Below are positions 1-24,974 of a stretch of DNA of 30,747 nt, piece by piece. The position numbers and the translations under genes are program-made. This DNA is from a virus. The stretch lies in IMG/VR virus record IMGVR_UViG_3300046820_000417, positions 1 through 30,747 of that record; one strand, 5' to 3'. Below the pieces are notes generated by a model. The model ran no database searches. It saw nothing but the letters and a program-made list of their open reading frames with translations, and had not been told where the DNA came from. The stretch's first letter is position 1. Each line of letters opens with the position of its first letter.

Positions 1-827
1 TCGTCACCTCTAAAATAAAAATCGTACTCACCAGACTGGAACCCTGGAGAGGTTTTGGAGAACTGGAGTTCCCACTTAATAGTTCTACCAATTTTTTCTT
101 CAATTAATTTATCTCCTACCTTGATCTTGCCCTTAATCGCTTGATTGTCTGACTCTGAAGAAAAGAGTTTAACAATACATGAGGAATAAAACTTAGTAGC
201 CTGACCACCAGAAGGCTGCTGGCTAGTATACATAGCATTAATATTATTACGAGACTGAGAAATGAGAACAAGCAAAGTTGGCTTAACTTTATTGTTTGCA
301 TAGTTAAGCATTTTCCATGCGTTACTAAAGTCACGAGATTCTGCTCCAATCTGCTTTGTGTTTTCCAAAGCCTTCATTTCATCTGTGTCCTTCTCAAAAT
401 AAATTGCAGGAAGCATAGACGTAATAGAGTCTACCACAATTAAATCAACTCCAGCATTCATTAGTCCTACGCCTACATCAACCATGTCGCTGATAGTTCT
501 TGCCTGTGAGTAGATTAGTTTTTCTGGATCCACTCCAAGAGATCTGGCCCAATCTTCTGAGTATGACATCTCTGAATCAATCCATGCACACAACTTACCT
601 TCTGCTTGTGCTAGAGCAATCATCTGAAGGCACATAGAAGACTTTGCAGACGACTTTGACCCCCAGATAAGAACTTGTCTACCATAAGGAAGCCCACCTC
701 CTAGTGCACGGTTTAAACCAAAACTTGGTGTTGGCTGATACTCATAGTTAACCCCAACCCCAGTTCCCAATCTCTTTCTCAACTTAGGATCAAGTTGTGC
801 CAATGCTTCTTCTACGCTAACCGACAT
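1..827 (-). CDS. RecA/UvsX-like recombinase, 3' end cut by window
   Basis: RecA-family ATPase expected to form filaments on ssDNA and catalyse strand exchange during phage replication and repair. About 275 residues are visible. An N-terminal PTPSFGLNRALGGGLPYGR segment is typical of the family. The P-loop follows at residues 56-63 (GSKSSAKS), then Walker B around 127-135 (VDLIVVDSI). A later stretch, SQSRNNINAMY...SGGQATKFYSS at about 190-216, matches the L2-loop region in which RecA proteins have NQ.R and PGG.ALKF. The P-loop has Ala where most RecA proteins have Gly; T4 UvsX-type proteins also vary here. The start is ATG at 827, with GGAGG six bases upstream. It overlaps the end of the polymerase gene by 11 bases, which suggests translational coupling. 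The frame is open to the window edge, so the C-terminus lies outside. Confidence 0.9.
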   Translation of the reverse strand, partial: MSVSVEEALAQLDPKLRKRLGTGVGVNYEYQPTPSFGLNRALGGGLPYGRQVLIWGSKSSAKSSMCLQMIALAQAEGKLCAWIDSEMSYSEDWARSLGVDPEKLIYSQARTISDMVDVGVGLMNAGVDLIVVDSITSMLPAIYFEKDTDEMKALENTKQIGAESRDFSNAWKMLNYANNKVKPTLLVLISQSRNNINAMYTSQQPSGGQATKFYSSCIVKLFSSESDNQAIKGKIKVGDKLIEEKIGRTIKWELQFSKTSPGFQSGEYDFYFRGD

Positions 828-3800
828 GTACATCCTCCAATGTTACTGTTCCGTCTTTAGTCTTTCCAAAATCAAACTTGTATGCCTTGCCCTCTTCAAT
901 ATTCATGTATGCCTTTGCAAAAGATGTAGGGAAAACTGTTATGGAATGCAAGTCTCTACTTGTATCCGCAAGAGTTAAAGATGCCATCTTCTTTCCAGTC
1001 TTTGTAATTCTTGGCTTAAATGAAACTACAAACATTTCATCATCCTTGTATGGAAGTTGCTTGTAACTCAAGAACTTTACAAGGGCGTGAGATGATTCTT
1101 TTATTTCATCAGATGGTATGAAAGATACAATCCTGTTATCATTACAAAGAACCAAGTAAGAACGACCAGTCTCAATAGTCGTATTTTCATCATCAAATAT
1201 GCCGACACTGCCAGTTTTGTCCAAAATTTCAACTCGTGACCATCCTGTTCCTCGCTTAATTGATTTTACCATACCCATAAAAATGTATGATCCTTTTTCT
1301 TCAAAGTCAACAATATCCTGAATAAATGCATAGTAGTGAGAAGGAATCGTAATATTAAACTCTGGAAGGTTTAGATACTCGTAAAGATTTTCCTTAATCT
1401 CTTGATCATTTCTAGGATTATCATTGAAAGTTGCAGCACCGATTGCTCTCAATGCCTGTAGTGCACGACTATTTACTCCGTTGCCTTTGGTAAATGTAAA
1501 TTCTTCAAGTTCTTTGTACGAACCGAATGGTCGTGCAGATATGTATCTTTCACCAATCTTGTCAGATATGAACTTGATAGCACTGAGTCCAAACCGAATA
1601 CCTTTACCCTCAATTTTAAAATCGATATCCGAATCGTTAATGTGAGGTAACTTAATGCTAATGCCCATTCTTTTTGCTTCAATAAGATATTCAGTTCTCG
1701 CATCTTTATCCTTTTCATTCTTTAGCACTGAGTACATAAACTCTAGTGGGTAATAATACTTTAACCATGCTGTCCAATAGGATAGCGTTGAGTATGCTAC
1801 TGCGTGAGACTTGTTGAATGAGTACCCTGCGTGAGCCTCAAAGTCATGCCACAAGTCACGAGCAATGTTTGGAGAAACAAACTTAGAGGCACCCTCTACG
1901 AACTTCTCTTTAAACTGATCAAATTCTTTAGCATCTTTTTTCTTGCCAATGATCTTTCTAACTTTATCTGCTTCCGACATGGACATACCGCCAAGGTGTA
2001 CGCATGCTTGCATAACTTGCTCCTGGTAAAGAATGCAGCCATATGTGTCCTCCGTAAATTGTTTTAGCACTTGGTGTGTGTAAGAAATATTTTGACGACC
2101 ATGCTTTCGGTCAACATAGTCTTTTCCGATAGTGTTCATTGCACCTGGACGAACAAGAGCATTAGATGCTGCAAGTTCATTTAGATTCTTGACACCCATT
2201 TTAACAAGAAGGTTTGTGTATGGTGCTGCTTCACACTGGAACACTCCCTTTGTATATCCGTCAGATAGCATCTGATAAACATTTGCATCATCCATCTTAA
2301 TTTTGAGGAGGTCAATCTTCTTGCCATCTCGCTCTTTAATAATATCGATTGTATTCTTAAGAACAGACAAAGTTTTAAGACCTAAAGCATCAATCTTAAT
2401 TAAACCAATTCTCTCAGCCTCTTCCATGTCAACACCAACAACGGGAATTCTTTCATCAGATCCAGTAGAAGATCTTGTTTCAAGTGGTGCATATCTAAAG
2501 ATTGGTTCCTTTGCAGTTACAACACCTGCTGCGTGAATACCTGTACCACGAATACGACCACGAAGTTGTTCACCATAGACTTCTACTTCTGGATACTTTT
2601 CACGGAACTCTCTGGTTGATTTTGCAGTACAGAAATCATCCCATGAGTCTACAGTTTTTAGTACTTTATTTACATCAGACAAAGGAATATTTAGCACTCG
2701 TGAAACATCTCTAACAATTCCCTTACCAGTAAATTCAAGGAAGGTGGCAATAGATGCAACATGTCGATACTGTCTAACAAGATAATCTTTAACTTCTTCA
2801 CGACGAGTATCCTGAATATCTGTATCGATATCTGGGAAGTCGTTACGCTCTGGATTAATAAAGCGGAAGAACAAAAGATTATGTTCAATAGGATCGATGT
2901 CTGTAATCTTTAGTGCATAACAAACAAGAGAGCCAGCAGAAGAACCACGACCTGGGCCTACCATAATCTCTTCCTTCTTAGCCCAGTTGATCATGTTACT
3001 TACAACAAGGAAATACGGAGCAAACTTCTTGTCCTTAATAATCTGCAACTCTTCTTCAAGTCTATCTAAGTACTCTTGATTCTCTGATAGGCCTCGCTCT
3101 GCCAAACCTTCTAGAGCAACTTTTGCAAGTTCCTTATCTGGACTCTTGTACTGTACTGGTAGAAGGTTCAACCCTTCCTGAATGCCATAGTCTCCTACTG
3201 TTTCTGCTAATAGGAGTGTGTTTGAGTATATGTCTGGTCTATCTATCCCCTGCGATTCCATCGCTGCTTTAATCTCTTCATATGAGAGCAGGTGGATATC
3301 AAACTTATTAAATGTAATCTGACGGTCTTCGCCATAGAGATAGTCAAGGCGCTCCATCATGTTGCCCTTTTTCTTTGACTTTTCATATGTTGCATCTTTT
3401 ACGAACTTGCCGTGTGTGTTCATGAGCAATTTAAACTCTTGAACTTCTTTTTGTGATGGATCAACATGGTGGCAGTCTGGTGTAACAATAACCTTGATAC
3501 CAAACTCATCTGCTAGTTCTATAAGATACTTATTGATGTGTGCTTCATTGTGAGGCATAACCTCAATATAGTAATCATCTTGAAAGCGTTCTTTAAACCA
3601 AGAGATATACTTCTTGGCAAGAGCAAACTCTTCTTCTTCCAATGCCTTAACTAAAACACTACTTGGGCAAGCAGAAGAAACGATAATTCCTTCTTTGTAT
3701 TTTTCTAATATTTCAAAATCAAACCTTGGCTTCTTAAAGAAACCATCTGTCCATGATAGTTCACTAATCTTGTTTAGATTTTCCAAACCAATTTTATTCT

Positions 3801-4092
3801 TGGCTAGAAGGATAATGTGATTATAGACAAGATCTTGCTGACCTTCTCTTTCAGACTTATCTCGTGTATCAGATATGTCTGCACACATGTATCCTTCTAG
3901 ACCTAGAATTGGCTTAATGCCCTTTGCTTTTGCAATACGGTGCAGTTCCCTATGCCCAGATAAAGTACCGTGGTCAGTGATGGCAATTGCTGGCATCCCT
4001 AACTCAACTGCACGGTCAACGTATTCTTCTGGAGTAGCAATCCCATCAAATAAACTAAAATGGGTGTGGACATGTAAGCCGACGTAGTTCAT
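817..4092 (-). CDS. dnaE: DNA polymerase III alpha subunit (family C, PHP domain)
   Basis: Replicative polymerase of 1091 residues, close to bacterial DnaE length (about 1160 in E. coli). The PHP domain covers residues about 1-280 with candidate metal ligands H7, H9 (HVH), D40, H41 (TDHGTLSG), E66 (GLEGYM), H92, C142, H181, D206 and H208 (PDCHH). The palm has GPGRGSSAG at 379-387 and PDIDTDIQ at 420-427, giving the catalytic pair D421/D423. The third acid is probably D568 in LIKIDALGLKTL. A helix-hairpin-helix-like region lies around 830-900 and an OB-fold-like region around 925-1000. No epsilon-type exonuclease gene is seen nearby; in non-proteobacterial DnaE proteins an intact PHP domain can proofread. 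The ATG is one base after the stop of the ssDNA-binding protein gene (TAA-T-ATG), so the two are probably coupled; the Shine-Dalgarno is weak. Confidence 0.96.
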   Translation of the reverse strand: MNYVGLHVHTHFSLFDGIATPEEYVDRAVELGMPAIAITDHGTLSGHRELHRIAKAKGIKPILGLEGYMCADISDTRDKSEREGQQDLVYNHIILLAKNKIGLENLNKISELSWTDGFFKKPRFDFEILEKYKEGIIVSSACPSSVLVKALEEEEFALAKKYISWFKERFQDDYYIEVMPHNEAHINKYLIELADEFGIKVIVTPDCHHVDPSQKEVQEFKLLMNTHGKFVKDATYEKSKKKGNMMERLDYLYGEDRQITFNKFDIHLLSYEEIKAAMESQGIDRPDIYSNTLLLAETVGDYGIQEGLNLLPVQYKSPDKELAKVALEGLAERGLSENQEYLDRLEEELQIIKDKKFAPYFLVVSNMINWAKKEEIMVGPGRGSSAGSLVCYALKITDIDPIEHNLLFFRFINPERNDFPDIDTDIQDTRREEVKDYLVRQYRHVASIATFLEFTGKGIVRDVSRVLNIPLSDVNKVLKTVDSWDDFCTAKSTREFREKYPEVEVYGEQLRGRIRGTGIHAAGVVTAKEPIFRYAPLETRSSTGSDERIPVVGVDMEEAERIGLIKIDALGLKTLSVLKNTIDIIKERDGKKIDLLKIKMDDANVYQMLSDGYTKGVFQCEAAPYTNLLVKMGVKNLNELAASNALVRPGAMNTIGKDYVDRKHGRQNISYTHQVLKQFTEDTYGCILYQEQVMQACVHLGGMSMSEADKVRKIIGKKKDAKEFDQFKEKFVEGASKFVSPNIARDLWHDFEAHAGYSFNKSHAVAYSTLSYWTAWLKYYYPLEFMYSVLKNEKDKDARTEYLIEAKRMGISIKLPHINDSDIDFKIEGKGIRFGLSAIKFISDKIGERYISARPFGSYKELEEFTFTKGNGVNSRALQALRAIGAATFNDNPRNDQEIKENLYEYLNLPEFNITIPSHYYAFIQDIVDFEEKGSYIFMGMVKSIKRGTGWSRVEILDKTGSVGIFDDENTTIETGRSYLVLCNDNRIVSFIPSDEIKESSHALVKFLSYKQLPYKDDEMFVVSFKPRITKTGKKMASLTLADTSRDLHSITVFPTSFAKAYMNIEEGKAYKFDFGKTKDGTVTLEDVHVG

Positions 4093-5999: not shown

Positions 6000-7220
6000 C
6001 TACTTATCTTCAAAGTCTTTATATCTGTAGTATCCCTTGTCAAAGTCACACTGTACCAAGAAGTCTCCCATAAATCCGTTACGGTTCTTTCTAAATGCAC
6101 ACTCAATGATATCGCTATTGGTTCCACGGCCCAATGCGAGCACCCAGTCGGCATCGTATGCAATCTGTCTAGACCATGCCGTTTGGCCCAGTGTAGGGAC
6201 CGTAGAGAGGTCATTAACATCATCTGGTGTTGCAGACGAGATAGCGATAATAGGAACCTCTTCACCAATTGCCATTAGTTTAAGTTCACGAGAAAGATTC
6301 TTCATTCTTACCGTTTCATTGTCTGACTTCTGATTAGGAGCCATCAACTGAAGGTAGTCAACGATTACAAAGTCTGGCTTGTACTGATCAATCTTTCCAC
6401 GAAGAACAGATGGGTTGATCTCTCCACCACTATCATTTGAGATAATGTGAAACTCTGGCTTGCCTGCAAGATTCTTTGCATGCCAGTCCTTTAGCATATC
6501 AATCTCTATCTCGCCGTTACTTATTTTACGATGTGACCAACGACCCTCGCCCATAATCGTAAACACACGATTGCGGACTTCTGTCTCACTCATTTCAAGT
6601 GAGATGACCATCGGACTCTTTCCTTGCTTCCATGCTTGCACAGCAAAGTAAAGAGCCAGCCACGACTTTCCGATTCCTGGATAAGCAAGGAAGACACCAA
6701 GTTGTCCTGGCATAATTCCTGAAGGAAGATAGTTGTCAAACCCTGGAAGACCTGTCTTGATTCCAGACAAACCTAATGCTTGCTGCTTCTTAACATTTTC
6801 AAAGTATGCAATAGCAGACTCAAGATCCGTAACATCGATATCACGAATTGCTGCAGTATTCTTCTTTAGTTCTGATGTCTTAGTAATTAGTTCGTTAAGT
6901 GCGCCAGTTCCATTATTGTTTTGAATTTCGCTGGCTGCAGACCTGATAATATCTTTTAGGCTGTCTGTAAGGTATTCTCCCTGAAGTTCTTCAAGGTGAT
7001 GCTTTGTAGCGCCAACACCTGGTACTGGCTCAAAGTCTCTAAACTTTTCAGTAACTAGTTCTGCTGGAGGAAGAACCGAATTGTTTTCAAAATAAAGTCT
7101 AACAAAGTTCCAAATGTCTCCGTGGGTTCTTAAAAGATTGTCTACATTTGCCTGAAGCAGTACATGTATCTGCTTATCGTTTAAAACAGCCGTAAGTAGT
7201 TTTGCCTCTGTATTATTCAC
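6000..7220 (-). CDS. dnaB: DnaB-type replicative helicase
   Basis: Hexameric 5'-3' fork helicase of the RecA/DnaB superfamily, 406 residues. The N-terminal 130 residues match the helical collar domain. The ATPase core has Walker A AYPGIGKS at 179-186, an SLEMS motif at 207-211, Walker B FVIVDYLQL around 284-292, and the conserved arginine-finger region FRKNRNG at 376-382. A TAWSRQIAYDADWV motif at 347-360 matches the DnaB H4-like region. The start codon is GTG, eight bases inside the end of the upstream gene, with AAGGAG seven bases ahead; translational coupling with the 102-residue protein is likely. It is slightly shorter than bacterial DnaB (about 450-470 residues), as is usual in phages. 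Confidence 0.94.
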   Translation of the reverse strand: MNNTEAKLLTAVLNDKQIHVLLQANVDNLLRTHGDIWNFVRLYFENNSVLPPAELVTEKFRDFEPVPGVGATKHHLEELQGEYLTDSLKDIIRSAASEIQNNNGTGALNELITKTSELKKNTAAIRDIDVTDLESAIAYFENVKKQQALGLSGIKTGLPGFDNYLPSGIMPGQLGVFLAYPGIGKSWLALYFAVQAWKQGKSPMVISLEMSETEVRNRVFTIMGEGRWSHRKISNGEIEIDMLKDWHAKNLAGKPEFHIISNDSGGEINPSVLRGKIDQYKPDFVIVDYLQLMAPNQKSDNETVRMKNLSRELKLMAIGEEVPIIAISSATPDDVNDLSTVPTLGQTAWSRQIAYDADWVLALGRGTNSDIIECAFRKNRNGFMGDFLVQCDFDKGYYRYKDFEDK

Positions 7221-15512: not shown

Positions 15513-16150
15513 TATACTTCTTCCAAAGTAACTGAGACATTCCAATAATCAAAATTGGCTCCTCTTTTTTCTACAGAATATGTAAAACTAGATATAAACA
15601 TTTCTATAAGTTGGTTATATTGAGATAGGTGATCATATGGAGCCTCTGTGCCCTTAAATATACCTTTTCTGTCATAGGCAAGAAATACCCAGAAAGAGCC
15701 CTTATGTGCATCGTACCACTCAAGCATATCTGCTCCTCCTGCACCGCCATCTGTTGTGTATGGTTTGTATGGCGATAAACCAGTGGCTGGATCAAAGTTT
15801 GGGATATCTGAATGAGACCTTGATGGAATCATGCTCCAACTTGTGCTAAGTCTCATCTTGTCAGCAATGTGGTATGACCTCATGCGACCATTGATCATTC
15901 TTTCCCGTTTTTCAATACGCTCATCTGAAAAATCTAATGGAGACCTGTTGTCATCTGTAAGCATTAAGAACTGGTCTATAAGAGTTGGATCTTCTTCTGC
16001 TGTTGCATCAGCACCAACTTCTAGACCGTATGGAATGTACAAACCATTTATCAGGGTGCCAGAGTTTTCAGACCATAACATACCGCTAGGTCTGTTGTAT
16101 TTTTTTCTACTCTGCATGTAGGTGTATCTTGGATCAATATCATCTGCCAT
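15512..16150 (-). CDS. Minor tail protein in distal-tail (Dit) position
   Basis: A 212-residue protein between the tape measure and hub genes, where siphophages encode the distal tail protein. It begins MADDIDPRYTYMQSRKKY. The middle part has RMRSYHIADKMRLSTSWSM and the end EMFISSFTYSVEKRGANFDYWNVSVTLEEV, a beta pattern like that of tail-tube-related proteins. A Gly-rich loop (DGGAGGADMLEWYDAHKGSFWVFLAYD) recalls Dit-family N-domains, where DKGSFW-like turns occur. The start overlaps the end of the tape measure gene by 11 bases, with AGGGGGA upstream. The Dit call is from position plus weak sequence feel. Confidence 0.7.
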   Translation of the reverse strand: MADDIDPRYTYMQSRKKYNRPSGMLWSENSGTLINGLYIPYGLEVGADATAEEDPTLIDQFLMLTDDNRSPLDFSDERIEKRERMINGRMRSYHIADKMRLSTSWSMIPSRSHSDIPNFDPATGLSPYKPYTTDGGAGGADMLEWYDAHKGSFWVFLAYDRKGIFKGTEAPYDHLSQYNQLIEMFISSFTYSVEKRGANFDYWNVSVTLEEV

Positions 16151-19100
16151 TTATTCCAATCCCCCTGATTCTTCTGTCGTCTACCTGCTTAATTGTTGCC
16201 ATTACTGCCTGTGCAATTTCGTTTGGATTAGCATCTGTCTTTGCGTTAACAGTTAATGTATATGTATTATTATACACTGCTCCGCTAGGTGTATCGCCAT
16301 TATTAATCTTTTTGAGATTTTCTACTCCGTATGAGTCTACTGCGTACTTGCTCATTACAAACTCTCCTGGAGTTAGCATTGCTGGTATTCTATCTGTACC
16401 CTTTGCAAAACCACCAGCAGCAAAATACTTAGGTACGAATCCACCCTTTGATAGATATCCGTACTTTGCTTTTCTTTCTGCAACAATTTCTGCTGCTGTT
16501 TTTGGCTTTACTGCTGCTGCCATTTTTGCTGCTATAGATGCTGCACCAATTGCTCCACTTTCTTGTGAAGCAAGAAAACTTGGAACATTTATGTTGGCAT
16601 TGATTGCTGCAATTCTAGCAGCCTCTGCTGCTGCTGCATCTGCCTTAGCCTTGGCCTCTGCTGCTGCCTTAGCATCTGCTGCTGCTTTATCTGCTGCTGC
16701 CTTTGCTGCACGATCTGCTGCTTCTCTTGCTGCCTTTTGCTCTGGAGTTTCTCCAGGAACCACAGGGGCTGGAGTATAAGCAGCAGGAACAATTGGATCA
16801 TTACCACTTGCTTGCTGATTATTGTATCCCTGAATTAGTTTTCCTTGAGTATTCAAAGCAAGTTGCATTGACTCTATAAACTTCTTGCTGTTAATCATAG
16901 CCAGGTCTACCTGATTCTTAATGGCTTCCCATGCATCTCTTGTCTTTCCAAGCACAGTTAAGTTCTCAACATCCTTATCTAGTTGTACTTGCTTTAGGCG
17001 AATAAACTCTTGTGCTGGCTCTATCTTCTTTTCTTCAAGGTCAAAGATTTCATCCTGAAGTTTTTTAATGTCTGCTTCTAGTTCTTTTCTAGTTCTATAA
17101 GATTTTGTAGTCGGGTCATATGCCTTCACAGAGTTAAGTTCGTATTGTCTAGACTGTTCTACTGCATCCTTTTGTTTTGTTACTGCATCTGCTGCTTGCT
17201 GCGCTCTCATGTCTTGTGCTGCTCTTGCTGCTGCTGCAATATCTCCAGAGGTTAGCGCTTCAGCAAGAGATAGTTGCCCTCTTTGCTGATTAGTAATTGT
17301 AGCGTTAGCCTTCTCTACTTCATCTAAAGCCTTAATTCTTTCATCATATTTTTCATTAATTTTTTGCTCTTGATCTTCAATAGCCTTGAGAGATGCTTCT
17401 TTGTCATCAATTTTATATTGAATGCCAGCAATTGTGTTCTGTGCTTCTTCAATTATCTTTGCACTTTCCTTGGTGTCTAAGTTAAACTTTATCTGAAGAG
17501 CGGTTTCTTGAACATCAAATGCTTCCATTGCATTACCAAAACCTTCGTCAAACATGTCCTGCATAAACCCAATAGTATTCTTTAACTGATTTAGTCTCTC
17601 ATCAAAGTCAGAGATCATGCTATTTAGTTCTTTTTGAGCAGCCATAATCTGACCTCTGTCGGCACCCTTAGAAATTAAACTGTTCACTCTTGACTGCTGA
17701 GCAGCGATAGCGCTTTCCATTGCCTTTAGATTTTCATCAGAGCCAATTGCAAAAGCAGTTTCTGAACTATACTTGCTTCTTATTCTGTCCTCTTGTACCC
17801 TATCCTTTTTAAATTGAGCAATATCTGTTTTTGTTGCTTGAATTGCTGCAGACTTTTCTTGCGCTACGGCCAAACCTTTATATCTGCTAATCAAAGTTTT
17901 TAATGTTTTATCGTTAACTCCATTAGCAATTGCCTGCGCTATGGTCTTATCAGTTATTAAATCATATGCATTCGCTACTGGAACACCAAGTGCTGCTATT
18001 CTATTGAATGCCTTACTCTGGTCATCAAGTGCCTTAGACTCTGCTTCCATACTAGAGTTCCAGTCACCCATAGCAATTGAGTTCATAGCCTCTTGAATAT
18101 TTTTAGCATCTCTCTTTAGTGCAATAATGTTGCCCTTATTGTCAAACTTAAACAGGGAGTTCTTTCTCTTCTCGTATTCCTTTGGATCCATGCCAACAAT
18201 CATTTCTATAAAGTCTTGGCTACCGCCCAATTTTCTGATATCGTTCTCTATACCGCTAAATACATCTATGGTCTTCTTGCCACCAAACAGGCTATCTAAG
18301 GCCTTACGAGAGGCGCTCCAGCCTTCTGTGACCTTTATCTGGTTCTTTCTTACATCTCTCAGTTTCTTTACTAGATCATCCAATGGGGAGGACTCTACCT
18401 TACTTCCCCCGCCTTTGTCTCCTCCTGTGCTTACTGGAGCATTTGCATTTACCTGTACATTATCAACAACAGCCTTTTGGCCCTGAGCCTCTTTATACTT
18501 CTGAATTATATATGCCTTGCTTCCAGTAACGCCTGCTCCGCCAAGTGGACCACTCTCTTTTCTCCATGCCTTAAAATCTTCACTTTCAATAATTTGTGGA
18601 TCTGGAATATTAATTAATGATGCAATAGTAGTTGTATAAACCTTTTGCTGATCTTCAGTCAAGGTGTTAAAGTATGCCTCATCAAATGCTGCAGTTCCCT
18701 TAACCTCTGGCATAATTTCATAAACAAAAGTTGCAGTTAAATCTTTTTTGCCCTCAATTCCATCTAGCATTGTGTTTAGTTTCTCATACTGCTCTTTGTT
18801 TTTTGGATCTGTGTAGTAACTGACCATGACATCTGATGGGATTACTGCGTTAAGATTATTTAACTTGATTATGTTCTTTGTAAAGTCAAGAGCATCAGAG
18901 TCTTTTTCAAATGCCTCTACTCTTGTAATAAATGAAGTTTGAACCTCTTTATTAATAACCTTATCTGCTCCAAGAATATTCTGTGCTGCAACACCAATTG
19001 ACTCTGATGTTGCTCCACTAAACTTAGTAATTATGTTCATCATCTTTGGAGCAATATCTTTATTCTCTGCTGCCATACCTAATAGACTTCTAAATACTGC

Positions 19101-22100
19101 AGGAGGAATGTCTCCGCTTGCCATCTTTGCCTGAATTAAAAACTCTTGTCCACTATCAATAAGTCCGTCTTTTCTTAGGTTTCCTGCTTGTGTATTAACA
19201 ACATCCACATAAGCCAACTGATTTGGATCATCCTTGTACTTTGCAGATACAGCCTTCTTCATACCGCTCATCATTGACTCTTGCATGCCACCAGCACTGT
19301 TGTATTGAGAAACTATGTCTGCTTGCATTTTTGCTTGGGCTGCAGTTAGTTTATCTCTTTCTCCCATCTTGCCTTTTTCGCCTAAATACTTATTTTCAAG
19401 TTCTCGTGCTTCATTGATCTTACCTTGAAGTTTAAGTTCTTCAATCTTATTTTGATAGTACATATCCATAGAGTCAAGCATTTGCTTATTTTGTTCCATT
19501 GCAATTTTTGCATCTACTGCATATGCTGCTCCAAGTTGTCCTGCTTGGGCTGCGAACTTCTTTGAAGCAAAGTATCCTCCGATTGCTCCTGCTGCAGCGC
19601 CAATTCCACCACCAATAATTGCACCAACTGCGTTTCCAAGTACTGGAACAACTGATCCTAGCGCTGCTCCAAGTGTTGCCCCAATTGCTGCCCCACCTGC
19701 TGCTGACGCACCAATACCAGCCATCTGAACTGTCTTTTGTCCAGCCATCTTAGTTATTGGGTTGGCATTTTTAATATTGTCAAGACTGCCCTGCATTTTA
19801 GTAGCATTATCATTAATCATTTTAATTCTAACATTGTATGGATCTTTTTCTAGATTCTCTCCATTTGGACCAAGGAGAGTTTCTAGTTGTCCAATTACCT
19901 TTAGTCCAATAGACATATCTCCTGCTTGTCTTGCAGCGTTCATTGCTAAACTCTTTGCTTGACCCATATCCATAGCACCAGACATTATTGCTGCAGAAAG
20001 TTGACCTGAAAGATCTTGTGCTGCAACATTTCCCTTGCCTGCAGCATTTTGCTGTGAAATTCTTTCTGTTAGTGCCTTGCCTTCCTTGGTTTGAATAAAT
20101 GCTTCACCGTATGTTGTCTTTCCTGTTGCTGCACCAAGCATTGAGAATGAGTTTTGTCTTCTCAAATCCATTTGCTCTGAGGCTGTTACCTTACCGCTAA
20201 ACTTTGCAATTTCATTTATTGCAGAACTTGAACCTCTAAACTTTTCATTTTCTTCTAAAACCTTATTTGCTGCTTTATCAAAAGCCATTCTTAGAGCCAC
20301 AAAAGATCCAACTGTTGCTGTCAGACCAATTGCTACTGCAGCCATTGGACTCTTGAGCATCGGAAGAATCATAGCAAGACCCATCAATGGCATCATAACT
20401 TTCTGTGAAATTTCTCCAACCTTACCTGGAGCCATGGATCCAATCATTGCTACACCAGATGCAATTCCAAGCGCACCACCCATTCCCATTCCTGGGCGCT
20501 TACCTGCATCTATCTTTGCCTGTCTCTTTGCTTCTCTGTTTTCAACAAATGTCTTAACTCTACCAAGTGGGGTTCTCTTCTTTGCTTCTTCTGCAGCCCG
20601 TGCATCAATAACAGATTGCTGGTATGCTACCTTTGCTGCTAACTTACTTCTTTTTTCTTCTAGTGCAGCCTGCTTTCTTCTGCCTCGCATAACTGGGTCA
20701 ATTGGTCCAGTTGTTCCATAGAGTGCAGTCTTAGACGCATTGGCCTTTGCCTGTGTTTTTGCTTCTGCTCTCTGTCTTTTTTCTATTTGACGACGCAATG
20801 ATTTTGCATCAGCATCTACTGGGCCAGTTCCATAAAGCATTGTTCTTGAGGCTGCTGCTGCTGATTGAGAAAGCGTAGTTCCAATATTTGCTCCAACTGC
20901 CTTTGCTTCTGCAACTGATCCTCTTGCTCCATCAACAATTGCTGCTGTGGTTGTTGACATTGCTTCTGGAGCATTTGCCTTTCCACGCAATCTAGGTCTT
21001 TGGCGTACTGATGATTCAACTTCCTTTGAAGCAATTCTTGTATCTTTTATTCCTGAGTCAGACTTGAATTTACCATTGTTTGGTTCTGTAGGTATTGGCT
21101 TTGTGTTTCCCTTAGCATCTTCTTGAACCTCATCAGGCTTTACTAAGATACTGCTATGCTTTTGATGTAACTTTTTCCAGTCAACCTTTAGTCCTGCTCT
21201 AAGTCTTGCTAACATCTTAGTGTATTGAGGCTTTAGTGGATCATTGTCTGGCATATCTGCTAGATATGGGACCATTAGAGAAATCTGTCTTTTAATTTCA
21301 TCTCTCATGGCTTTATGATATTGATCTGGTGTTAGATTTAAAGCAATATCCTTAGTTGCATTTGCAAACCAATTAGGAGAGTTCTGTGGGTTTGCCTTAC
21401 TTTTTTCTGGAAGACCCTTTAGGTTTTCTTCTGCCATTTGCTCTAGAGATGGCATCTTCTTTGATAGTTTTCTCTCTCCAGAGGCAGAATCAAACACTCC
21501 TGCAGGTCCAACATCAGTTAAAATATTACCGCCTAAGTTTCCTGCTTTGAGATCTTTATCTCCACGAAGGTTTGCTGCCACTAACTGTCTAAAATATTGT
21601 TCCTGAGTAAATGTCTTTGGAATATTTTTTGTGTCAAAGTTTTTGTTAAATTCAGACTCTAGGACAATTATCTTTCTCTTCCCTTGTGGGTCTGAAGGAT
21701 CAATCATTGTTTTAATGTTTTGTTCTGGTGTATCAAGTCCCTGAACAACTCTGGCAAAGTCTGTTGCTCTCTTTTCTGCTATAGCATCTAGTTCGCTCAT
21801 CATTGGCTTTACAAATACTTTTTTGCCGTCAGGCCTCTCATAAAGACCACCCATGAAAGATGCCTCTTTAAAACTGTAACCAGATGATGGAGCAATTTGT
21901 TTTCCAAAGTCAGTAGGAGGAAGTTTTCCAGACACTGTTTTTGTTGCGGCATCTGCAACACGCTCTAGGACCGTCATCTTTGATTGACTTGGCAAGTCTG
22001 CTGCTCTTTGTGCTATGGCCTTTGCTCTTGCCCGTTCTGTTGCTGCGTTGCTCCTTGCTTGGCTTTTTTCATCTTGGCTAATGTTTACTCTATGGCCAGA

Positions 22101-24974
22101 ACCGAGACGATTCATGTTTACGACTGTTCCATCATTTAATGTTACTGTGGCTGATCCAGTTACAATCTTGCCAGCGTTGGTTTTTCCAGTTCCTTCTCTT
22201 TCCTGAATATCAAAACTTTTTATAGCACCCTTCTTTACTGCATCTTCTAAAATTTTTCTACTTTCTTCTGGAGTGTTTCCTAATCCTCTTCCAAGTAAGA
22301 ACTGAGTAGATGTATTGTATAGTTTTTCTGCTTGAGTGTATCCCGCAGTTTTTGCAATATCTGGTCTCTCTGCTGGGATTCTTTCTGTAAATATTTTCTT
22401 AACATAGTCATCATTAACATGTGTTATTTTTTTATCTGCCAAGTCTTGCTTGATCATCTCTATCATTGCCTTATCAAAAGGATCAGCAACGGCACCACTA
22501 ATCTTAGATGCTTCCCACTTATTTGGTCCTAACTTGTCCCAAGCATCTATAAAGTTTTGAGCAGGAATTCCAACACCAGAACTCATTGACATGTTCATTG
22601 ATGCTGGGAATGTAAACATTAATTTGTGCAAAGTTGCTGTAGTTGGCTTTAGACCTTGTGATACCAGAATTGCCTCAAGCGCTCTTAGTTTGGCCTTTTG
22701 ATCATCACCCATAAAAGGATTATTTTTAATGATATCGGAAATTAGTTTTTGCTCACTCTTTCCACCTACGTGTGTTTTTTGTGTTTGTCCATCTGCCGTT
22801 ACTTCAGGTGTTCCACCATTAAATCCTTGTACACGCTTTCCTGCAATCAACTGTGCAATCATTGGTCTGTTTGCTGGATCTTGTGCTGCCTTCGCTGGAA
22901 TAACCGCTTCTCCAGGAGTAAGCATTGTTGGAACTGTATCCCTGCTTCCGCTTCCTGGAACTTCTGTAGTTCCTGTAGAGTACTTCTTTAGTCCAGGAGT
23001 TCTTCCTCCACCTCTGACTGGGCCAGTGAATCCTGCCTGTGCTGCGATTGCTCTTCTATATGCTGCTGCAAGTGAGTTGACTGCAGTTGTTTCAGATGTA
23101 AATGTTTGTCTAAGTTTTTGGTGAACCTGATCAAGAGATGCTGCAACTGCTGATGCTTCTAATTGCTCTTTTGTTAGATAGTTAGTTTGCTCACCTAAAA
23201 CAGTGCTTGCATTTCCAGTTCTGTTGTACATGGACTTCATATTTGCAAATAGTTTAATTATGTTGGCAGCAGCGTTTGCTATCAAACCAAATGTCATCAA
23301 AAGTACTGGACCAATACCAGCAACTGCTACTGTAAATACAGTTAAGAACTTTTTTGTTCCGTCACCAAGATTATTAAACTTATCAAGAACTTTTCCAACA
23401 AACTCAAGGATAGGGGTTAGAGCCTTTAGGAACTGCTCTCCAACTGGAGCAAGAGCAATCTTAAGATCTTCCATAGACTTCTTAAACTTGTATGATGTTG
23501 TATTTTGTATCTTATCTAATTCTCGTTGTGACAAAATTGCAAGTTCTTCTGTAGTTGCTCTTGTAAGTCCTAGAACTCTTTGTGCCTGTGTTCCCTGCGC
23601 TGTTACGTTTTGGAATAGTGTAGAAAGTCTTGAGAACTGAAACTTACCAAATAGTTGTTCAATTGCACGAGCACGGTTAAGTGGGTCAAGTGTGTCAAGT
23701 GCCTGTGCAAAACCAACCACTGTTGCCTTGATGTCTCCCTTGTTTGCTTCAACAATTCCTGTAATGTTTACGCCAAGATCTTTAAGAAAAGCGCTTGCTT
23801 TCTTTGATGGATTAATTAAAGATGCCAGACCAGACTTGAGTGCGTTAGCACCTTCTGATGCATTAATTCCACCTTCCTTCATTGCTGTTAGGAAGAATGC
23901 AAGATCTTCTACATCTCCGCCAAGTTGTTGTACAACTGGTCCAGCCTTTGGAATTGCAATTGTTAAATCCTCAATAGAAACAACAGTTTGGTTTTCAACT
24001 GCGTTGAGGAAGTCAATCTTCTTTGCTAAATCTTCTGTTGCAACACCGAATGCATTTGTTACAGAAATAGTTGTTTCTAATGCTTGTGTCTGCTCTACTC
24101 CACCAAGTACTGCCAGTCTAGTGGCCTGTGCAACCTGTGCTGTTAGTTCTGCACCCATCTTGCCCATTGCTGCAGCATCAGCAGCCATCTTCATCGTATC
24201 TTCTACAGCAACACCGTACTTGGTATATTCCTTTGCAAGAGTCTGAATTTGCTTGATCATTGCATCAGTTTCTTCTTGCGTTGTAAACATTTCTCCGTAT
24301 ACACGCTTAAATCTAATTGCCTGCTCTTCCATTGCCATGAATGTCTTTGAGGCCTGTGCTCCAAGCATTGCAAGAGGAATTGTAAATCCAACCATCAACT
24401 GACGGCCTGCCCACTGAGTGTTCTTACCGAAGTTTAGAAGATTGGTTGATCCTTGCTTTAGTAGTTGATTTAGAAGTTGTTGTCTTTGTGCAGCAATGGC
24501 AGTTTGTGTGCCAAGGTTTTTCATGTCAAGGGTTAGAGGTCTTACAGCAATTGACTCTAGTGCTCCGTTAGCACCACGACCCAACTTAATATATTGAGTC
24601 TGTATATCTTTTACACGCTCTCGTGCAACCTTGTTAATTGTTTCAAACTCAGACTTAAACAGTCTACCAAAAGTTTTTGTTGCTGCTCCAGTGTATCTGA
24701 AGTACTCTCTAGATGTTAGTTTGTTACGCTCTAGCGCATCAGTGAAATGCTCTGTACTGGTTGTTACCTTTCGCATAGATGCCTGGAATTGTCCAGTTGC
24801 ATTTATTGCGTTCATCAAGTTCTGGGCTTGATTTGCAGATACCGCAGCAGCAGCGGTACCAGACTTTGCCATTTGTGTATGGAAGGCTGATATTTGACGT
24901 TGCAGAAGTTTTAGACTTGCTAAAGCATCAGACGTATCAATATTTACATGAATATTGGATTGAACATCAGCCAT
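16140..24974 (-). CDS. Tape measure protein with inserted kinase-like domain
   Basis: Sets tail length and lines the tube. 2944 residues; at roughly 0.15 nm per residue this predicts up to about 440 nm, less if inserts are not ruler. Residues about 185-450 match the phage minor-tail tape-measure core (NTQWAGRQLMVGFTIP, PKAGPVVQQLGGDVEDLAFF, LFGKFQFSRL). Hydrophobic segments lie at about 545-580 and 1495-1565; a glycine zipper (GAAIGATLGAALG..IIGGGIGAAAG) at about 1756-1806. Residues about 720-1280 are an insertion with a kinase-like part at 1018-1175. Two LYGT-GP(I/V)D repeats lie at 1378-1426. An Ala/Lys-rich helix lies at about 2744-2792, and an MLTPGE motif occurs at 684 and again near the C-terminus. 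The site GAGGTG precedes two ATGs; ATG 24974 opens this frame. Confidence 0.95.
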   Translation of the reverse strand: MADVQSNIHVNIDTSDALASLKLLQRQISAFHTQMAKSGTAAAAVSANQAQNLMNAINATGQFQASMRKVTTSTEHFTDALERNKLTSREYFRYTGAATKTFGRLFKSEFETINKVARERVKDIQTQYIKLGRGANGALESIAVRPLTLDMKNLGTQTAIAAQRQQLLNQLLKQGSTNLLNFGKNTQWAGRQLMVGFTIPLAMLGAQASKTFMAMEEQAIRFKRVYGEMFTTQEETDAMIKQIQTLAKEYTKYGVAVEDTMKMAADAAAMGKMGAELTAQVAQATRLAVLGGVEQTQALETTISVTNAFGVATEDLAKKIDFLNAVENQTVVSIEDLTIAIPKAGPVVQQLGGDVEDLAFFLTAMKEGGINASEGANALKSGLASLINPSKKASAFLKDLGVNITGIVEANKGDIKATVVGFAQALDTLDPLNRARAIEQLFGKFQFSRLSTLFQNVTAQGTQAQRVLGLTRATTEELAILSQRELDKIQNTTSYKFKKSMEDLKIALAPVGEQFLKALTPILEFVGKVLDKFNNLGDGTKKFLTVFTVAVAGIGPVLLMTFGLIANAAANIIKLFANMKSMYNRTGNASTVLGEQTNYLTKEQLEASAVAASLDQVHQKLRQTFTSETTAVNSLAAAYRRAIAAQAGFTGPVRGGGRTPGLKKYSTGTTEVPGSGSRDTVPTMLTPGEAVIPAKAAQDPANRPMIAQLIAGKRVQGFNGGTPEVTADGQTQKTHVGGKSEQKLISDIIKNNPFMGDDQKAKLRALEAILVSQGLKPTTATLHKLMFTFPASMNMSMSSGVGIPAQNFIDAWDKLGPNKWEASKISGAVADPFDKAMIEMIKQDLADKKITHVNDDYVKKIFTERIPAERPDIAKTAGYTQAEKLYNTSTQFLLGRGLGNTPEESRKILEDAVKKGAIKSFDIQEREGTGKTNAGKIVTGSATVTLNDGTVVNMNRLGSGHRVNISQDEKSQARSNAATERARAKAIAQRAADLPSQSKMTVLERVADAATKTVSGKLPPTDFGKQIAPSSGYSFKEASFMGGLYERPDGKKVFVKPMMSELDAIAEKRATDFARVVQGLDTPEQNIKTMIDPSDPQGKRKIIVLESEFNKNFDTKNIPKTFTQEQYFRQLVAANLRGDKDLKAGNLGGNILTDVGPAGVFDSASGERKLSKKMPSLEQMAEENLKGLPEKSKANPQNSPNWFANATKDIALNLTPDQYHKAMRDEIKRQISLMVPYLADMPDNDPLKPQYTKMLARLRAGLKVDWKKLHQKHSSILVKPDEVQEDAKGNTKPIPTEPNNGKFKSDSGIKDTRIASKEVESSVRQRPRLRGKANAPEAMSTTTAAIVDGARGSVAEAKAVGANIGTTLSQSAAAASRTMLYGTGPVDADAKSLRRQIEKRQRAEAKTQAKANASKTALYGTTGPIDPVMRGRRKQAALEEKRSKLAAKVAYQQSVIDARAAEEAKKRTPLGRVKTFVENREAKRQAKIDAGKRPGMGMGGALGIASGVAMIGSMAPGKVGEISQKVMMPLMGLAMILPMLKSPMAAVAIGLTATVGSFVALRMAFDKAANKVLEENEKFRGSSSAINEIAKFSGKVTASEQMDLRRQNSFSMLGAATGKTTYGEAFIQTKEGKALTERISQQNAAGKGNVAAQDLSGQLSAAIMSGAMDMGQAKSLAMNAARQAGDMSIGLKVIGQLETLLGPNGENLEKDPYNVRIKMINDNATKMQGSLDNIKNANPITKMAGQKTVQMAGIGASAAGGAAIGATLGAALGSVVPVLGNAVGAIIGGGIGAAAGAIGGYFASKKFAAQAGQLGAAYAVDAKIAMEQNKQMLDSMDMYYQNKIEELKLQGKINEARELENKYLGEKGKMGERDKLTAAQAKMQADIVSQYNSAGGMQESMMSGMKKAVSAKYKDDPNQLAYVDVVNTQAGNLRKDGLIDSGQEFLIQAKMASGDIPPAVFRSLLGMAAENKDIAPKMMNIITKFSGATSESIGVAAQNILGADKVINKEVQTSFITRVEAFEKDSDALDFTKNIIKLNNLNAVIPSDVMVSYYTDPKNKEQYEKLNTMLDGIEGKKDLTATFVYEIMPEVKGTAAFDEAYFNTLTEDQQKVYTTTIASLINIPDPQIIESEDFKAWRKESGPLGGAGVTGSKAYIIQKYKEAQGQKAVVDNVQVNANAPVSTGGDKGGGSKVESSPLDDLVKKLRDVRKNQIKVTEGWSASRKALDSLFGGKKTIDVFSGIENDIRKLGGSQDFIEMIVGMDPKEYEKRKNSLFKFDNKGNIIALKRDAKNIQEAMNSIAMGDWNSSMEAESKALDDQSKAFNRIAALGVPVANAYDLITDKTIAQAIANGVNDKTLKTLISRYKGLAVAQEKSAAIQATKTDIAQFKKDRVQEDRIRSKYSSETAFAIGSDENLKAMESAIAAQQSRVNSLISKGADRGQIMAAQKELNSMISDFDERLNQLKNTIGFMQDMFDEGFGNAMEAFDVQETALQIKFNLDTKESAKIIEEAQNTIAGIQYKIDDKEASLKAIEDQEQKINEKYDERIKALDEVEKANATITNQQRGQLSLAEALTSGDIAAAARAAQDMRAQQAADAVTKQKDAVEQSRQYELNSVKAYDPTTKSYRTRKELEADIKKLQDEIFDLEEKKIEPAQEFIRLKQVQLDKDVENLTVLGKTRDAWEAIKNQVDLAMINSKKFIESMQLALNTQGKLIQGYNNQQASGNDPIVPAAYTPAPVVPGETPEQKAAREAADRAAKAAADKAAADAKAAAEAKAKADAAAAEAARIAAINANINVPSFLASQESGAIGAASIAAKMAAAVKPKTAAEIVAERKAKYGYLSKGGFVPKYFAAGGFAKGTDRIPAMLTPGEFVMSKYAVDSYGVENLKKINNGDTPSGAVYNNTYTLTVNAKTDANPNEIAQAVMATIKQVDDRRIRGIGINGR
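16600..16745 (-). repeat. Ala/Lys-rich helical repeat near tape measure C-terminus
   Basis: Low-complexity stretch of GCA/GCT codons giving roughly residues 2744-2792 of the tape measure, a TolA-like Ala-Lys-Asp/Glu helix. It makes Gln- or Leu-rich shadow reading frames in other frames, which are not genes. Probably a single long helix. Confidence 0.7.
20700..20843 (-). repeat. Two-copy LYGT-GP(I/V)D repeat inside tape measure
   Basis: Two copies about 38 residues apart, TMLYGTGPVDAD and TALYGTTGPIDP, each followed by a basic helix. They occupy residues about 1378-1450. The role is unknown; they lie between the kinase-like insertion and the second hydrophobic segment. Confidence 0.6.

Follow-up and report, generated by a model that had tools for sequence, protein, structure and literature searches.

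A domain with a predicted kinase-like fold is a swappable cassette in the tape measure protein of a freshwater phage lineage

The tape measure protein (TMP) of a freshwater phage carries a discrete domain (residues 1018-1280) that is a swappable cassette in a slot of this protein, and structure prediction strongly indicates that the domain has a kinase-like fold. The window, i.e. the whole stretch of DNA analysed here, is a viral contig of 30.7 kb (30,747 nucleotides, IMG/VR record IMGVR_UViG_3300046820_000417), and all of its features named below lie on the minus strand. Our preferred reading, to which we give a probability of about 0.5, is that the domain is a kinase-like cargo cassette (HipA or PI3/4K type) which would be delivered with the TMP and would act on a host target at entry; delivery, catalysis and target are what we infer in this reading.

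The domain was placed by an earlier note at positions 21135-21923, and this location, the motifs quoted for it and the residue numbers K1056, E1067, D1141, N1146 and D1162 all proved correct. It lies inside a protein of 2944 residues (16140-24974), which we identify as the TMP because its residues 246-443 (23646-24239) match Pfam PhageMin_Tail (E 5e-25). This long protein is encoded between the tail tube/chaperone and tip genes, so that the gene order places tail genes on either side of it, and its N-terminal part is about 31-37% similar to annotated Streptomyces phage TMPs. On the basis of this similarity, the phage host is probably one of the Actinobacteria. The tail genes are adjoined by genes for a bacterial-type DNA polymerase III alpha subunit with a PHP domain and for a DnaB-like helicase (817-4092 and 6000-7220).

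Comparison of whole TMPs revealed that residues 1-720 and those from about 1490 onward are common to the lineage, while residues 720-1370 form a variable slot; in kinase-free relatives the conserved N-terminal part stops at about residue 720. Among 80 TMPs found via the N-terminus alone, the domain was present in 29, absent from 42 and could not be scored in 9 incomplete ones, which gives 29 of 71 evaluable proteins. Three of the kinase-free relatives (L288, L282 and L292) share 84-85% identity with the window over the N-terminal region and have unrelated sequence in the slot. Another one, L322, retains the upstream module and lacks only the kinase domain plus linkers, thus representing a natural empty site; this module (residues 720-1003, 21966-22817), which is partly common to L322 and the window, had no match in Pfam or PHROG. 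When presence and absence were mapped on a tree of the N-terminal region (a short search, with long branches flagged), parsimony required 10 gains or losses, at least 4 of which are forced by well-supported branches. Alleles are also exchanged between close relatives, as identity between L118 and the window is 92% for the N-terminus and 79% for the C-terminus, against 47% for the kinase domain.

By hydropathy, the slot is flanked by hydrophobic segments: residues 542-576 (23247-23351) on its N-terminal side, and residues 1531-1565 (20280-20384) together with a glycine-zipper-like stretch at residues 1757-1805 (19560-19706) on its C-terminal side. The last of these is matched by Pfam Gly-zipper_Omp with an E-value of 2e-4, just under the cut-off. 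A PGEAVI-type motif (residues 665-695, 22890-22982) lies close to where the variable slot begins. The TMP has two copies of a VP.MLTPGE[AF]V-like motif, at 22890-22982 and 16350-16442 (residues about 687 and 2869), and variants or extra copies of it are found in relatives at the borders of the slot, so it perhaps marks module boundaries.

No clear enzyme emerged when the other slot contents were scanned against Pfam and PHROG. These different contents, in L288, L282, L292, L302 and others, measure about 330-950 residues (TMP residues about 720-1170) and have no Pfam match. A slot content of 948 residues in L343 (11567-14410) matches phrog_8314 and, weakly and under the cut-off, DUF3626 (E 1e-4), and is possibly another cargo domain. 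With the slot subtracted, the TMPs of L288, L292 and L302 measure about 2170-2240 residues, a length also seen in the window; tail length may be set without regard to the slot.

In one of four scans of viral contigs, 385 relatives of the kinase-fold domain were detected, and every domain found sits in a very long open frame. All 63 long representative frames that were compared match the TMP of the window outside the domain as well, so that across more than 380 viral contigs the domain was seen only in TMPs. Neither the domain, in a scan of one genome per prokaryote species, nor the TMP N-terminus was found in bacterial or archaeal genomes, and tblastn of the domain against annotated phages gave no real match. 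Comparison of the domain with PDB sequences, Pfam, PHROGs, NCBIfam and PADLOC yielded chance-level matches to unrelated families only. Selection on the domain is purifying (dN/dS 0.11 in comparison with L002).

The fold was predicted with AlphaFold2 from an alignment of 80 homologous sequences, which resulted in a confident model of residues 1018-1280 with pLDDT 93.5 and pTM 0.91; folding from the single sequence gave an unusable model (pLDDT 45). The predicted N-lobe has five strands and a helix C, arranged as beta1 (1025-1029), a loop, beta2 (1043-1046), beta3 (1052-1057), helix C (1061-1076), beta4 (1085-1091) and beta5 (1101-1108), and is followed by the hinge, helix E (1124-1137), the catalytic loop, short strands and a C-lobe of about 100 residues, made of the helices at domain residues 160-260. 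This is the layout of the protein-kinase-like (PKL) superfamily, in a predicted model with modest E-values of its structure matches. In a Foldseek search of the PDB, the best 50 matches were kinases of many families or kinase complexes, among them WNK3, CtkA, AAK1, p38, JNK2, Pto, ABL, RIPK2 and BAK1, with two entries being kinase-effector complexes. These matches are weak, with a best E-value of 1.6e-3 (none pass 1e-3), TM-scores of 0.2-0.4 and a large rmsd on superposition. The highest probability among them (0.94) belongs to CtkA of H. pylori (PDB 3akk/3akl), which we take to be a HipA-like Ser/Thr kinase. The top matches among the predicted viral proteins of BFVD were phage virion proteins of ADP-ribosyltransferase/portal type (E 2.5e-5 and 6e-5, probability 1.00), and HSTV-2 gp16, named PI3K/PI4K, was also found there (E 1e-3, probability 0.98). 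The kinase-like fold in the TMP proposed by the earlier note is therefore borne out by the model and, with weak E-values, by its matches, and virion proteins with kinase-like domains, which it had mentioned, are indeed the best viral ones. By its predicted fold, the domain belongs to the PKL superfamily, with one defining residue missing.

The residues invariant among 119 distinct domains include G1032, S1034, K1056, E1067, R1137, D1139, D1141, L1142, N1146, D1154, G1156 and G1159. The candidate ATP-binding lysine K1056 (21807-21809) lies at the end of beta3, and E1067 (21774-21776), in the helix after it, is the candidate salt-bridge glutamate; the helix had been proposed to supply such a residue (E1061 or E1067). 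The stretch SFMGGLYERPDGKKVFVKP, previously described as glycine loop and strand with the lysine, is predicted to form beta2, a turn and beta3, so the lysine stands, while the glycine loop is likelier to be the one between beta1 and beta2 (1030-1042), with G1032-x-S1034 (21873-21881). KIIVLESE (residues 1101-1108, 21651-21674) is beta5/hinge-like, as had been suggested for KIIVLESEF, and its E1106 is kept in 118 of 119 domains. The candidate catalytic loop R1137-G-D1139-K-D1141-L-K-A-G-N1146 (21537-21566) presents a D-x4-N pattern, with D1141 and N1146 in the register of HipA D309 and N314. The catalytic asparagine may be N1146 or N1150, because the alignment with HSTV-2 gp16 runs four residues off the HipA register and pairs N1150 with the loop Asn of gp16. 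When the identities of 40 invariant columns were reshuffled, the ordered K/E/D-x4-N/D layout appeared in 148 of 200,000 trials (0.07%, p ~7e-4), for a pattern that was picked post hoc, with the data already seen.

The metal-binding Asp is a different matter. D1162 (21489-21491), to which this role had been assigned, is D in 36 of the 119 domains and is replaced in the others (70%) by S, A, G, K, Q, E or N, and it was thus ruled out as a general metal ligand. Aligned by eye with HipA FYD and HSTV-2 AID, its position is that of the DFG-type Asp after the catalytic loop; most members therefore lack this Asp and the canonical active site is altered. D1154 (21513-21515), invariant like its neighbour G1156, is a candidate alternative ligand, placed 8 residues after N1146 and so nearer to the catalytic loop than is usual for a DFG-type Asp. 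From these residues, either D1154 or D1139 may replace the metal Asp, or the domain may bind nucleotide only, as a pseudokinase. Loss of K1056, D1141 and D1162 throughout the homologues had been named earlier as grounds for giving up the kinase idea; the first two are kept in all 119 domains.

Sequence comparison gave quite a different picture from the fold. No kinase family was matched by the domain in Pfam, NCBIfam, PHROG, PDB-sequence or profile-profile searches, and none of 20 members had a match in Pfam, PI3/PI4 kinase (PF00454) included. The PI3/PI4 kinase motif DRH..N...DFG/DNG is not found, as the loop of the domain reads RGDKDLxxGN, with no H. There was likewise no match to the HipA family (PF07804), nor is there a HipB-like antitoxin gene beside the domain, which is internal to the TMP and has tail genes as neighbours. 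Scores against a profile built from nine HipA proteins (15.5) and against HSTV-2 gp16 (20.5) both stayed within those of shuffled controls; still, the best (non-significant) alignment with the HipA profile matches the catalytic loops residue for residue (D1141=D309, N1146=N314), the chance of which we roughly estimate as 1 diagonal in 700. The suggested affinity with HipA or PI3/4K thus holds for the fold, where these are the nearest kin, and not for the sequence. By the tests made, the domain is not a member of the HipA, PI3/PI4 kinase or polyvalent-protein kinase families.

It is nevertheless instructive to compare it with these systems. With HipA-type kinases (E. coli HipA, CtkA) the domain shares the fold match and the D-x4-N loop, as well as, by eye, an E...GLxxP plus hinge pattern following the glutamate helix; unlike them, it has no significant sequence or profile match, no conserved DFG-like Asp and no HipB-like partner, and it resides in a TMP. 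HSTV-2 gp16 and the uncultured Caudovirales ART/portal proteins are its best viral structure matches and are virion-protein fusions, too. A similar VFKP lysine and GNILxD strand are present in the PI3K/PI4K-like domains of phages and haloviruses, whose carrier protein, however, is not a tape measure. In gp16 the catalytic loop GNDDRHYGNILMDGDNKPWAIDSG matches Pfam PI3_PI4_kinase (E 1.5e-5) and GNDDRHYGN...AIDSG is kept, whereas the TMP domain has neither. This gp16 (L271, 10647-12119) is a halovirus virion-region protein annotated as hypothetical in HSTV-2 and as phosphatidylinositol kinase in HRTV-2 and HRTV-11. Kinase-fold domains in phage virion proteins are already known, and in polyvalent proteins a kinase domain is fused into a large phage protein that is presumed to accompany the DNA into the host (Iyer et al. 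2017, PMC5512222), much as here; those kinases, however, were described as lacking the whole C-terminal subdomain (PMC5512222), while the TMP domain has its helical C-lobe. Finally, in some siphophages the tape measure is expelled and becomes inserted in the envelope, and a peptidoglycan-cutting domain is built into several tape measures, such as those of T5 (pb2), mycobacteriophage TM4 and phiIPLA35 (PMC6116005). Such hydrolases cut the cell wall and are not ATP-dependent, in contrast to what we propose here, and no hydrolase signature was found in the TMP domain. A search of the open-access literature turned up no previous description of a kinase fold within a TMP.

How might such a cassette work? 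The N-terminus of a TMP points towards the head end and the C-terminus towards the tip (PMC9863714). During infection, the TMP would be expelled through the tail and inserted in the cell envelope, with the hydrophobic segments on either side of the slot lodging in the membrane. An ATP-using domain is sensible only where ATP is, and thus the loop between these segments would be exposed to the cytoplasm after entry, where the domain borne by it could refold. ATP would be bound via K1056, E1067 and the glycine loop; D1141 would act as the catalytic base and metal would be held by N1146 together with a further invariant acidic residue, D1154 or D1139, while phosphate would be passed to a host target, e.g. 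a defence, translation or membrane protein. We find it somewhat more probable than not that the domain performs an enzymatic transfer, while the chances that it acts on the host at entry seem about even, the cassette behaviour agreeing with this idea without proving it. On one hand, the scattered occurrence of the domain, the exchange of its alleles and its invariant active site are more in keeping with an effector aimed at the host than with a component of assembly. On the other hand, a folded domain of 260 residues may not fit the lumen of the tail tube, which counts against delivery; if the lumen is too narrow, the domain would be held unfolded or at an end.

The loss of D1162 combined with retention of the ATP-site Lys and Glu would also be expected of a pseudokinase or nucleotide sensor, in which ATP binding without phosphate transfer would trigger unfolding, membrane insertion or DNA release. 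We regard this as fairly unlikely, since D1141, N1146, D1139, R1137 and D1154 are all invariant and a pure binder does not need them, and since many close relatives manage without the domain, which is thus not needed for entry as such. SelO and SidJ have kinase folds that carry out different reactions (AMP transfer, glutamylation or the like), and the odd spacing of the invariant acidic residues D1139, D1141 and D1154, together with the non-conserved DFG-like position, might indicate such chemistry at a rearranged metal site, still in a host-directed virion effector; there is no direct sign of it, neither the sequence nor the top fold matches pointing to such families, and we deem it unlikely.

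That the domain was seen only inside TMPs could be taken to mean that the kinase regulates assembly or length in the cell that makes the phage, by acting on tail proteins or on the TMP that contains it. Patchy presence, allele exchange and alternative slot contents suit a host-facing role better, and this explanation seems to us quite doubtful. It is very improbable that the domain is no enzyme at all and serves as a structural filler or an insert of receptor-like kind, its predicted likeness to kinases being a coincidence: sequence-level kinase homology is indeed missing and Foldseek E-values are weak, but every top structure match is either a kinase or a phage protein that has a kinase-like domain, and the invariant residues occupy kinase positions.

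If the kinase-like cassette is delivered as we propose, infection may bring not just phage DNA but also an enzyme into the host. More broadly, we would tentatively picture a widespread lineage of freshwater phages which uses the TMP as an injection vehicle, with a membrane-flanked slot for interchangeable effectors, one of them from a novel family of kinase folds whose metal site departs from the canonical one and which would modify its host target at DNA entry; we hold this fuller picture to be possible and somewhat short of probable. The enzymes built into TMPs in the literature searched were all cell-wall hydrolases. If true, the kinase-fold cassette would mean that a TMP can bring effectors into the cytoplasm, where they act before any phage gene is expressed, and it would make the fate of the TMP during DNA entry, which is an old question, directly testable. 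As the family is large, the result would apply to many freshwater phages.
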